Origin: Numida meleagris
Taxonomy: Eukaryota > Chordata > Aves > Galliformes > Numididae
Direction: 5' to 3'
DNA length: 64,000 bases
NCBI RefSeq assembly: GCF_002078875.1
Contig: NC_034409.1
Span: 18,792,877-18,856,876 of the forward strand
This document shows, piece by piece, positions 1 to 17,600 of the stretch; position 1 is the stretch's first letter; each line of letters begins with the position of its first letter. A program made the translations under genes and the position numbers. The notes beneath the pieces are model-generated. The model made no database searches. It saw only the letters and a list, made by a program, of their open reading frames with translations, and was not told the origin of the DNA.

Positions 1-8444
<8,444 letters not shown>

Positions 8445-13111: not shown

Positions 13112-13297
13112 TTCACGCGGGGCCGCCACCTACCTGGGCAGCGCCGCCAGCCGGGCACGGGTCGGGGACCCGCAGCCGCTCCGCTCCTCCGGGCGCTCCT
13201 CCGAGCTGCGAGCGTCAGCTAAAGGTACAACAGTGCCGCAGCGACCGAGTTCCACACCTGAGAAACGCCAAATGAGGGTCACTGCCAAATGAATCAA

Positions 13298-13454
13298 GTA
13301 CGTCACCGCATCTTATGTGCAGAACCCCACCGGGTATCGTAGGAGTTAAGGTGACGTTGCACCTCCACGGCTGAGGAACTGAGGAATTGCAAGGACTTAA
13401 CGCCACGTTATAGGGCCAGCTTTTAGGAGCCCACAGATCCGCGCACTGACGTAC
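13298..13454. promoter_or_regulatory. Cluster of CRE/ATF-like TGACGT sites
   Basis: TGACGTAC occurs at 13447-13454 on the plus strand and, as an exact inverted copy (GTACGTCA), at 13298-13305. A third TGACGTTG lies at 13352-13359. TGACGT is the core bound by CREB/ATF and related bZIP factors. Function here is inferred from sequence only. Confidence 0.4.
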
Positions 13455-13991
13455 ACGCACTTCCCTGACTGCTACAAAGGCATTTCGGGATAAAAAGACA
13501 TCGCTGCTGAGTCGAGCGGCTTCCTGCCCTGGTACCGAGCCTGATGGGGCAGGCGGAGCGAGGTGACCCCGACCCACCGACCCCAGAGCTCGCACCCCCG
13601 AGGCCATTCCTCCCCGTCCCACACCCCCACTGCCCCAGGGCACGGCAGCGCCCTGAGAAGCACCGAGGGGAAACAGAAAGTGGGCGCAGCGTCTGTGCTA
13701 GCGACAACGCTCACACAGAGCGGCCATCCCTCGCGGTGCTTTCAGCCGCACAGCGCCAGCCCCTGCCCGGCCGCCGCTCCCCACCGAAGGACCGATGGCC
13801 GCAGGGGCGGGATCTCTCGGGGACGCCGGGCAGCAGCTCCCCGCCCGCGTTCTCTCTGCCCTCGCTTGCCTCTCGCCTCTTCCCTCAAGGAGCCACCACC
13901 GCACCCCTCCGCCTCACCTCTGCCCCCGGCACCGCGCCCTGTCCTGTCCTGTCCCCCCCCGCACTCACCCCCCAGCTCTCCACGTGGCCAC

Positions 13992-14006
13992 CCCGCAGAG
14001 GGCGCC
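13992..14006 (+). promoter_or_regulatory. CTCF-like motif
   Basis: CCCGCAGAGGGCGCC matches the CTCF core and is preceded by GGCCA. Its orientation is opposite to the site at 13091-13111, so the pair is divergent. Confidence 0.45.
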
Positions 14007-14057
14007 GACGGGACGGGGCTAGCGACTGGAGGAGGGGTGGGGAGAAAAACGCCAAGC

Positions 14058-14065
14058 TCACGTGA
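14058..14065. promoter_or_regulatory. Palindromic E-box TCACGTGA
   Basis: TCACGTGA is the core bound by USF, MITF/TFEB and similar bHLH-Zip factors. It is one of several promoter-type motifs between the two genes. Confidence 0.45.
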
Positions 14066-14144
14066 CCGCCTCCCTGCCGGCCATGTTAGGTGAGGGCAGA
14101 GCGCGCCGCCAGCCTCCTAGAGCTCCGAGGCGGTGATCGAATAG

Positions 14145-14197
14145 AAATGGCGGCCAGCTCCGAGACGGACACAGCTGCCCGCACTCATGATGGCGGC
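14145..14197 (+). promoter_or_regulatory. Two YY1-type motifs
   Basis: AAATGGCGGC at 14145-14154 and ATGATGGCGGC at 14187-14197 both match the YY1 core (AANATGGCGGC). Such sites are common just downstream of starts in TATA-less CpG promoters. Confidence 0.45.
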
Positions 14198-14272
14198 GGG
14201 GCCCGGCGTTACTCTCACCGCAGCTCTCCGTCCCACCCCCCTCCCGGCTCTCTGTGCACGCGGGGGGCTCCG

Positions 14273-14277
14273 ATTGG
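14273..14277 (-). promoter_or_regulatory. Inverted CCAAT box (NF-Y)
   Basis: CGATTGGCCC. It is the first of three NF-Y-type boxes at 14273, 14299 and 14333, spaced 26 and 34 bp start to start. Confidence 0.5.
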
Positions 14278-14284
14278 CCCGGAG

Positions 14285-14303
14285 CGTGGCGGGCGCCGAT
14301 TGG
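14285..14303 (-). promoter_or_regulatory. ER stress response element (ERSE), perfect match
   Basis: Plus strand reads CGTGG, nine bases, ATTGG, which is the exact reverse complement of the ERSE consensus CCAAT-N9-CCACG. By established knowledge NF-Y binds CCAAT and ATF6 (or XBP1) binds CCACG during ER stress. CRELD2 is reported to be induced by ER stress through such an element in mammals. It lies about 220 bp before the CRELD2 start codon and can face both genes. Confidence 0.85.
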
Positions 14304-14309
14304 ACCACG
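14299..14309 (+). promoter_or_regulatory. ERSE-II, perfect match overlapping the ERSE
   Basis: ATTGGACCACG fits the ERSE-II consensus ATTGG-N-CCACG exactly. It uses the same ATTGG as the ERSE at 14285-14303. The NF-Y box is therefore flanked by one CCACG half site on each side, in opposite orientations. Confidence 0.8.
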
Positions 14310-14332
14310 TTCCTCCTCTCCCTCCGCCTCTA

Positions 14333-14337
14333 CCAAT
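14333..14337 (+). promoter_or_regulatory. CCAAT box (NF-Y)
   Basis: TACCAATGGC, direct orientation toward CRELD2 and about 185 bp before its start codon. Confidence 0.5.
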
Positions 14338-14426
14338 GGCCGCTGGCAGCCGGAGCGTGCGTGGGGCTGACGCGGAAATCTGAATGGGGCTCGCGGGCCG
14401 GTGTCTCTCTGGTTGCTACGGGGGCC

Positions 14427-14436
14427 GGGGCGGGGC
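14427..14436 (+). promoter_or_regulatory. GC box (Sp1 type)
   Basis: GGGGCGGGGC, about 90 bp before the CRELD2 start codon. Just upstream, GGTTGCTACG at 14411-14420 resembles an RFX half site. Confidence 0.45.
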
Positions 14437-14521
14437 GAGGCCGTGCCGCGGGGCCGCGCTGCGGCGGGCTGGGAGCGCGGCCGGGCCGCCCCGCGCCTTA
14501 TCCTCGCGCGCTGCACTCGCC

Positions 14522-14674
14522 ATGGGGCCCGGCCTCGCGCCTCGCTCGCCGTTGCCCCCGCTGTGCGCCGCGCTGCTCCTCCTGCTGCTGCCGCCTCCCC
14601 CTGCTATGGGCGCCGGCGAGCGGCGGCGCTTGGCGTGCTCCACCTGCCGGGGCATCGTGGACAGGTTCAACCAG
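14522..14674 (+). CDS. CRELD2: CRELD2 exon 1 (coding part)
   Basis: 51 codons. It encodes the signal peptide ([17 protein letters not shown] core) and [14 protein letters not shown] with the CXXC pair. It ends in phase 0 at CAG|GTGGGC inside the CpG island. Confidence 0.93.
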
Positions 14675-17600
14675 GTGGGCGACGGGGACGCGGGCGGGGA
14701 TGCAGGCCGCTGGCGAGACCGTCCGCCGAGCCCCGGGGCCTTCGTGCGGTGCGTGCCTCCGGCTGCGCGCCCCTCGCCAGCCCCCGCGGCGCGGCGGTCG
14801 GGTTGACGCGCGGCAGCGGCTCTTTCCGCGCTCAGGAGCTGCCGTAGGCGCCAGGTCGGGGCCTGGCTGGGCTCGGGCGCAGCTGCCGGTGCTCCGCCGG
14901 TGCTCCAGTGCCGGCGGGGCTCCGCAGGATCTGACAGGTGTGGGTGGGAAACCCCGCCCCTACAGCTCCGTGCTGTCACCTGCGGCCTCGCGCGGTGCCA
15001 TCGCCTGTGCTTCCTCGCTTACCATTGCTTGTCGTTTTTTTTTACGTATCGATTTGATCAGCAGCTTCAGAGCTTTGCTGAAGTTTCTGTGACATCGCTT
15101 AAGCGGTTACTGCTGCCCTTAACTTTTGCTCGAAACGAGAACTGCTGTTTAGATTCTGTCGGTCTGTTCGTTTGCCAGGGATTAGCAGATACGGCAAAGA
15201 AGAATTTTGGTGGTGGAAACACTGCTTGGGAAGAGAAAACGCTGTCGAAGTACGAGTCCAGGTGAGCTGCCTAGGCACTCCTTCCATTGGGTGTTGTATT
15301 CCCGTGTGTGACTTCTCAGAACCAGTGCTAATCTGGTTCTTAAATACCAAGTGTAAGAGCCGAAGCCTCATGTGTCCAAATCATGAATCCTTACTGACTA
15401 AAATACAGCAGGTTACATGGTGTCTGCACGTCACCATAAAGACAGACATCCCTTACTTGTGAGTGACTGACAGCACTTGTGTTTACCACTTCTGAAAACA
15501 AAAAGGGTAATACTTCATTTTGATCATGGTATTAATATTGTCTTTGCTTACTCACTGGAGTCCCAAAACAATAGGTTGAAGTAATGGTCAGTAGTTAATT
15601 GATTGTCCTAAACAGCGTGGACTTTATCTTGGTGTACTGCCAGTCTTGTTTTACAATTAAAGCAGTAACTGCTCCCTGGAATTCACTGTTCGCTATTTCA
15701 GTATCGAATAGCAAACTGGAAGACGGACAGGTTACTGCACTGCTTCGTATATGTGTCTGATTACTGAGTGAAACAATCTGGCATCTTTCTTCCAAATCTC
15801 AAATTTAGTTTTTAATCTTAATTGAAGCACTGATGTGCAAGGGTAGATTTTCTGAACTTTGTGACCTTGTGTCAGATATAAGCAATATCTGAAAGTTACT
15901 GTCAAATTTGTTAGAAAAATCTGGTAAACCTATGATCTGCAAACATAATAAATGCAATCTTCATAGTTACAGTGAATTAGTTCTTTATTGCAATATTTGC
16001 TCTGTCTTTGAGGTAGTTCAGAACACAGTCTCAACTGATAAAGTATTCTAGGCCGCAGTCTAGCTTCTGCATCTTGAGTGGTGCCGAATTAAACTGAAAT
16101 TAAACAGTAAATTAAACTTATGACTTTCCTTCTCTTCTTGTAGTGAAATTCGTCTTGTAGAGATCACTGAGAATCTGTGTGACAGCAGTAACTTCGAATG
16201 TAACAACATGGTAGAAGAACATGAGGAACATATAGAGAAATGGTGGTTCAAACTGTAAGTGCCTTTTGGGTGTGTATAGATCTTTGTGTTGATAAATATC
16301 TGAGTGGACAAAATATTAATGCTATATTTTATGCCTGATCAATAGGAGTATGTTAGTTGTAGCACAGGGGTAGAAAGTGTGTAAGTCCACTTAATTCTCC
16401 TGACAGTTGGGAAGTAAGCTATGGAGATTCCAAGAGTTACCATGAGGGGACTCTGAACTATATGTTCCAAATTAAAATTATCCAGTGCTGCTAATTGCAA
16501 CCACCTCTGAATGGAATTAGAGTTTAGCTGTACAGCAGCAAGAAGTGAAGACGACATCTAATTACAATTTGCATGAAAGGAAAACTTGATAGGATATTTT
16601 TTTACTCATTGATTAATATTAATTTCTCTAGTCAGTGATCATAAATTCATTACGTTAGTGTTGTTTTTTATTACCTTGAGTTGGCAAGATGCTAGACTAA
16701 GATTTTTCCAGTTCCTAGGTTGTTTTCATCCTTCCATTTGGTATAGAAATACATGTCTATCAGGAAGTGATATTGAATGGACTGTGCCAGGAATCACACT
16801 GCGTGGATTAAGGAGCTGGGCATTCATGTTAGGGAGTAGCTTATCTACTACTTCTGTGTCCCATGCACAGGCAGACTGGATCTGATCAGGTGGAATTCAG
16901 TAGGATGGACTAATGTTATACCACTTCATCATTGGATAAGAATTTTTGATAGTCTATTTTGTTCTTAATGATTCTTTTATTGCTTCATACTTCTATCTTA
17001 CTGTGCAGGACTGAGTACACATTAAACATGCAGACTGGAGGAAAGATTTTCAGGGTCTGGGCCTTGGAGTAAAAATGATCAGATGTAATAGTTTATAAGA
17101 AGAGGCTGTATGTGCTTCAGGAGTTGCTGAAGACATATCTCCAGGCACACTGCAGAATTTCTAAGCATTTTATAGGGCTTTCCTTTATTAAAGTTTCTGA
17201 AACTTCAATATCTGTACGATACTGAGGTCTCTGAATTGTCATTTGAGGTGGATTCAGAATTGGCTGAGTGGCAGAGCTCGGGGGGTTGTGATCAGCAGCA
17301 CAGTCTGGTTGGAGGCCTGTAGCTAGTGGTGTTCCCCAGGGGTTGGTACTATGTCCGGTCTCTTTCAACATCTTTATCAGTGACCTAGATGAAGGGATGG
17401 AGTGTACCCTCAGCTGATGATCCAGAGCTGGGAGAAGTGACTGATGCACCAGAAAGATGTGCTGCCATACAGTGAGATCTGGACAGGCAAGTTGGGTGGA
17501 AAGGAACCTGATGTGTTTCAACAAGGGCAAGTGTAGAGTCCTACGCGTGAGGCAGAATAACCACACACATCAGTAGGGTAGAGGTTGATCTGCTGAAAAG

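Follow-up and report, generated by a model that had tools for sequence, protein, structure and literature searches.

The closest described system is the mouse CRELD2-ALG12 bidirectional promoter, dissected by Oh-hashi et al. 2010 (PMC3091781). Thapsigargin raised both transcripts at 4 and 8 h (Creld2, 2.9- and 4.3-fold; Alg12, 3.6- and 3.7-fold), and a fragment spanning −343 to −212, in which one ERSE is described, gave a similar thapsigargin and ATF6 response in either orientation when combined with the SV40 promoter (PMC3091781). In the same work, an NF-Y site 8 bp downstream of the ERSE added to basal activity, a stretch with Ets-type TTCC sites near the ALG12 start damped the ERSE, and activity toward ALG12 was weak in the native context, with an ALG12 reporter (−361/+11) unchanged by ERSE mutations; ALG12 constructs were stress-responsive only once three suppressive sites had been deleted, and the NF-Y box of the ERSE was then required (PMC3091781). 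The accessible text of a second source writes the mouse Creld2 ERSE as CGTGG-N9-ATTGG and reports that mutating it considerably lowered both the baseline output of the CRELD2 promoter and its response to stress (PMC10018036), while excerpts of a further study describe Alg12 as an XBP1s-dependent 12-hour gene in mouse liver and bidirectional promoters as enriched for XBP1s binding (PMC6959563). UPR control of the CRELD2-ALG12 pair, and the ERSE of that pair, are prior knowledge.

The related ERSE-II was first found in the Herp gene, according to the available portion of PMC5890977. At both ERSE and ERSE-II, ATF6 depends on NF-Y, XBP1s binds independently, and XBP1 prefers an ACGT core, as stated in the accessible sections of two reviews (PMC8910952, PMC8301375). 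In open literature available in part and searched with a limited set of wordings, no description of a fused ERSE/ERSE-II was found, nor any bird promoter test of the ATF6/XBP1 response through ERSE-II, and no paper in the open literature was found to name CRELD2, ALG12, XBP1 and ATF6 together. Neither CRELD2 nor ALG12 is named in the accessible main text of a human in silico screen that included the ERSE (PMC5890977) or in the accessible text of PMC10164557.

The stretch analysed here (the window) is 64 kb of Numida meleagris DNA. It holds two genes in divergent order, on the plus and the minus strand, which we take to be CRELD2 and ALG12, respectively, from peptide words of the known proteins. 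The joined CRELD2 exons 1–3 contain a PF11938 domain (E = 2.3e-9). The joined ALG12 coding exons 1–2 match the solved chain 9s6t over all 99 residues from the initial Met (E = 1.9e-60), a chain titled just ‘Mannosyltransferase’, and gave no family match in Pfam or NCBIfam; further along the gene, 7298–7681 matches Glyco_transf_22, the Alg9-like Pfam family, one bit below the curated cut-off (E = 6.4e-5). The position of the window (C1:18.79–18.86 Mb) is in agreement with the interval of chicken chromosome 1 (18.07–20.85 Mb) that includes CRELD2 and ALG12 in the available part of PMC9026094. The sequence-only reading had placed its element between two divergent ER genes, and the gene models bear this out.

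Between the two genes, a direct pattern match identified a 25-bp block at 14285–14309 of the form CGTGG-N9-ATTGG-A-CCACG in which every element is exact: CGTGG (14285–14289), the spacer CGGGCGCCG, ATTGG (14299–14303), the single A, and CCACG (14305–14309). The earlier claim of a perfect inverted ERSE and a perfect ERSE-II on a single ATTGG is therefore exact, and the distance to the CRELD2 start, given as about 220 bp, is 219 bp from the end of the ATTGG to the ATG at 14522. Measured to this ATG, the ERSE is a short way upstream of a gene with an ER-stress-induced orthologue in mouse. The two halves differ in their letters, with the ERSE half reading CCACGC, without an ACGT core, and the ERSE-II half reading CCACGT and extending to CCACGTTCC, with an ACGT core at 14307 and TTCC from 14310. 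Three NF-Y boxes fall within 65 bp (14273, 14299 and 14333; Table 1), and since the first of these, 7 bp beyond the ERSE, has its own CGCGG half, two inverted ERSE units stand here in tandem, of which the second is perfect.

Table 1. Features of the CRELD2-ALG12 interval in the window, and the HSPA5 promoter boxes used for comparison.
Feature	Position	Strand	Basis
CRELD2 coding exon 1 (ATG 14522)	14522..14674	+	exon model
CRELD2 coding exon 2	15179..15261	+	exon model
CRELD2 coding exon 3	16144..16254	+	exon model
ERSE, perfect (CCAAT-N9-CCACG = CCAATCGGCGCCCGCCACG)	14285..14303	-	consensus match, exact 9-bp spacing
ERSE-II, perfect (ATTGG-N-CCACG = ATTGGACCACG)	14299..14309	+	consensus match, exact 1-bp spacing
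NF-Y box common to ERSE and ERSE-II (CCAAT on minus)	14299..14303	-	putative; NF-Y binding predicted from consensus
Second inverted ERSE-like unit (CGCGG-N9-ATTGG, one mismatch)	14259..14277	-	NF-Y box 14273-14277
Third NF-Y box (CCAAT)	14333..14337	+	ERSE and ERSE-II half positions with 3 mismatches each
UPRE-like TGACGCGG, one mismatch vs TGACGTGG, weak	14368..14375	+	UPRE consensus from accessible review text
ALG12 first coding exon (ATG at 8420)	8256..8420	-	acceptor-like site upstream
Stretch with candidate splice donors for putative non-coding ALG12 exon 1	13133..14218	-	donor matrix
HSPA5 promoter boxes	L042 reverse complement, 0-based: CCAAT 3613, 3646, 3678; ATTGG 3527		motif scan

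The bird locus resembles the mouse promoter in having the same gene pair in divergent order with, as far as the mouse texts are accessible, the same orientation of the ERSE relative to CRELD2, and in having a further NF-Y box beyond the ERSE in the same direction, at a gap of 7 bp in the bird and 8 bp in the mouse. This shared orientation and the nearly equal offset of the NF-Y box make it likely that the bird ERSE is orthologous to that of mouse Creld2. The two descriptions differ in that the available text of PMC3091781 mentions no ERSE-II half sharing the NF-Y box with the mouse ERSE, and in that the mouse transcription start sites are 362 bp apart (PMC3091781), whereas the ALG12 start codon of the bird lies 5.9 kb from the element. 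ERSE control of CRELD2 in mammals, cited by the sequence-only reading as known, is supported by the mouse promoter work (PMC3091781; accessible text of PMC10018036). The novelty that it proposed for the composite has to be narrowed, as the ERSE part is known, in the same orientation in mouse (accessible text of PMC10018036), and the extra ERSE-II half is what may remain new. Its suggestion that symmetry would let ATF6/XBP1 act on both genes is not supported, since the mouse fragment with one ERSE works similarly either way (PMC3091781) and two-way action needs no mirrored composite. Taken together, the earlier interpretation is partly supported: it is correct about UPR control, invokes a symmetry that is not needed, and claims too much for ALG12. 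In the accessible text of a study of laying-hen liver, CRELD2 was up 2.35-fold (PMC6839265), a rise that fits a secretory-load response and is not a direct test of the element.

We favour, as somewhat probable, the reading that the block represents, in the bird, the conserved ATF6/NF-Y ERSE of CRELD2, with an extra ERSE-II half acting as a second dock for ATF6/XBP1s. Its basis is the sequence match, the gene order, the uniqueness in the genome and the near-copy at HERPUD1, with the function of the ERSE taken from the mouse literature; the orthology of the ERSE, factor binding, what the second half adds, and any effect on ALG12 in the bird are its predicted parts. NF-Y would occupy the ATTGG at 14299–14303 constitutively, aided by the adjacent NF-Y boxes, and under ER stress cleaved ATF6 would dock beside it on the 9-bp side (ERSE, CCACGC), while the 1-bp side (ERSE-II, CCACGT) would provide the second dock, to be taken by ATF6 or else by XBP1s, a factor that prefers an ACGT core and can do without NF-Y. 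Induction of CRELD2 would be the chief output, and any effect on ALG12 would come about through the known orientation independence of the ERSE rather than through symmetry. The presence of the ACGT core in the ERSE-II half alone, together with the review data on ATF6 and XBP1s, suggests that the two halves may differ in factor preference and not in direction. Were the second half to work, one NF-Y box would serve two UPR factors at different distances, and the locus would be a compact natural construct with which to ask whether ATF6 and XBP1 share NF-Y, each from its own side at the same time, or compete; were it idle, the bird would simply have the orthologue of an ERSE already well studied in mouse.

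That last case, in which the inverted ERSE alone is functional and the downstream CCACG is a chance match within a CpG island, is the alternative that survives best, and we regard it as a tentative but real possibility. The accessible mouse and review texts report an ERSE alone, and within the local CpG island 2 of 996 positions have an exact CCACG (4 of 996 a CGTGG, the composite's own sites counted in both). Genome-wide, perfect ERSEs number 407 (198 + 209), fewer than matches to the reversed control pattern (726; 374 + 352), so a plain ERSE consensus match carries little weight; given 407 perfect ERSEs and the frequency of CCACG in the island, a single chance composite somewhere in the genome is thinkable. 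Against a chance origin, the second half is perfect in both letters and spacing at a known UPR promoter, and in dinucleotide shuffles of the GC-rich stretch 14020–14520 (n = 20,000) an ERSE-II arose in only 11, an ERSE in 12, and both together, or the composite, in none. Within the window, the perfect ERSE and the perfect ERSE-II each occur as a single copy (whole-window shuffle means, 0.01 and 0.00), and the composite still has 1 match when up to three mismatches are allowed, with at least one match in 28 of 100 shuffles (mean, 0.31).

The perfect composite occurs once in the 1.043 Gb Numida meleagris genome (1 forward, 0 reverse), and the reversed-pattern control is absent from both strands (0 + 0). 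The composite was chosen for scrutiny post hoc, and its uniqueness by itself is weak evidence for function; what argues for function is location, the sole perfect copy being at a promoter known in mouse to use an ERSE. Genome-wide enrichment of the degenerate composite was not seen, with 290 places (155 + 135) at up to two mismatches vs 1,013 (486 + 527) for the reversed pattern; being poorer in CpG, the latter is an imperfect control for the composite. A tally of NF-Y boxes across the window and the fetched loci (n = 220, the duplicate L001 excluded; 12 with up to one mismatch per half) was dropped as a background, since most of the loci had been retrieved via the composite pattern itself.

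Among the matches listed, which comprise about the first hundred of the 290 places with up to two mismatches, the composite was found with at most one mismatch at 6 places genome-wide. Of these listed places, ATTGG is intact in three (CRELD2, HERPUD1 on L003, and the CpG-poor site L002) and broken in the other three (L004, L005 and L006). That two of the three listed places with an intact ATTGG are UPR promoters is suggestive. In the HERPUD1 promoter (L003:1501–1525) the ERSE-II is perfect, and its NF-Y box is also flanked by an inverted ERSE half that departs from the consensus at one position (CGAGG). Joining the first two exon pieces at this locus gave a match to PF00240 (ubiquitin, E = 2.1e-6). 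Among solved chains, the Herp domain 1wgd had the best alignment over a single stretch (E = 1.1e-16 vs 2.5e-7 for HERPUD2); the summed scores of several polyubiquitin chains were comparable or better (down to 9.3e-34), none of them having a single stretch that passed. HERPUD1 thus shares with CRELD2 a perfect ATTGG-N-CCACG in a CpG-island UPR promoter, with an ERSE half on the same NF-Y box, but this ERSE half is imperfect, whereas both halves are perfect at CRELD2. The near-copy speaks against a chance CCACG at CRELD2. One-mismatch halves, however, turn up at 38 of 996 CpG-island positions, which gives the HERPUD1 near-match a chance of about 4% per site. A second box in this promoter (CCAAT 1550, L003) forms a one-mismatch ERSE.

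The human HSPA5 ERSE-II has its box in common with an ERSE. In the accessible part of Table 1 of PMC6111088, from a scan tolerating one mismatch, human HSPA5 has three ERSEs at −68 and an ERSE-II at −107. The bird HSPA5 gene was recognised from an exon piece whose best match is BiP (E = 1.6e-45), and its promoter resembles that of CRELD2 in carrying NF-Y and CCACG units upstream of the start codon, here arranged at even intervals in three ERSE-type boxes, of which one has a perfect CCACG and two have 2 mismatches. Unlike at CRELD2, the ERSE-II half is absent from these three boxes (5, 3 and 3 mismatches), which manage without it, a point in favour of the second CCACG at CRELD2 being a chance match. 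A separate upstream box has a one-mismatch ERSE-II half (CCGCG) without an ERSE half. With CRELD2, HERPUD1 and HSPA5 as the promoters compared, the composite was rejected as a general UPR-promoter feature on account of the three negative boxes of HSPA5. A candidate for HSPA5 on C28 (L041) was also rejected, being HSPA8. At L024 (C1:75680909–75680933), a CpG island contains GGTGG-N9-ATTGG-T-CCCCG, with an intact ATTGG and one mismatch per half.

A stronger form of the favoured reading would treat the hybrid of ERSE and ERSE-II on one NF-Y box as a distinct, selected dual-input element in birds, with ATF6 on the CCACGC face and the XBP1-preferred CCACGT opposite, recurring in perfect form at CRELD2 and with one mismatch at HERPUD1, and joining the ATF6 and IRE1 arms at a single site; we consider this unlikely. 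More doubtful still, and to our minds very improbable, is that a different factor (CREB/ATF, bHLH, or Ets on TTCC) recognises the CCACGTTCC half and tunes basal activity, not stress induction. The ACGT at 14307 and the TTCC at 14310 would suit such factors, and an Ets-type TTCC stretch does damp the mouse ERSE, though elsewhere, near the ALG12 start (PMC3091781), but the exact ERSE-II spacing beside an NF-Y box at a UPR gene points away from them. Least credible is directional control, with one of the opposed half-sites acting toward CRELD2 and the other toward ALG12: the gene order is divergent and both genes are induced by ER stress in mouse (PMC3091781), but the ERSE fragment of mouse gives similar responses in either orientation, the mouse asymmetry stems from three suppressive sites (PMC3091781), and the ALG12 ATG is 5.9 kb off, with its first exon not located.

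The designation of the block as an ALG12/CRELD2 promoter stands as regards gene order and divergence and falls short as regards ALG12, whose ATG at 8420 lies 5,865 bp from the composite and whose exon 1 was not located. From this distance of about 5.9 kb between the ATG and the CRELD2 promoter block, we infer a non-coding ALG12 exon 1 followed by a long intron in the 5′UTR. Candidate donors on the minus strand (first base of the intron at 14218, 13968, 13917 and 13133, among others; all possible) were scored with a simple donor matrix. For a bidirectional promoter, divergent transcription start sites would be expected within a few hundred bp, one on either side of the element; the divergent order is seen, with the ALG12 ATG at 8420 and the candidate donors at 13133–14218. 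Of the nine CRE-like hexamers (TGACGT/ACGTCA) in the 64-kb window, three (13300, 13352 and 13447) lie within 13300–13452, a stretch that is upstream, on the minus strand, of the strong donor at 13133; it also has CCACG at 13365 and 13403, and could be a separate ALG12 promoter. Also between the CRELD2 and ALG12 coding exons, CCACGTGG is found at 13980–13987 and a second CACGTG E-box at 14059–14064.
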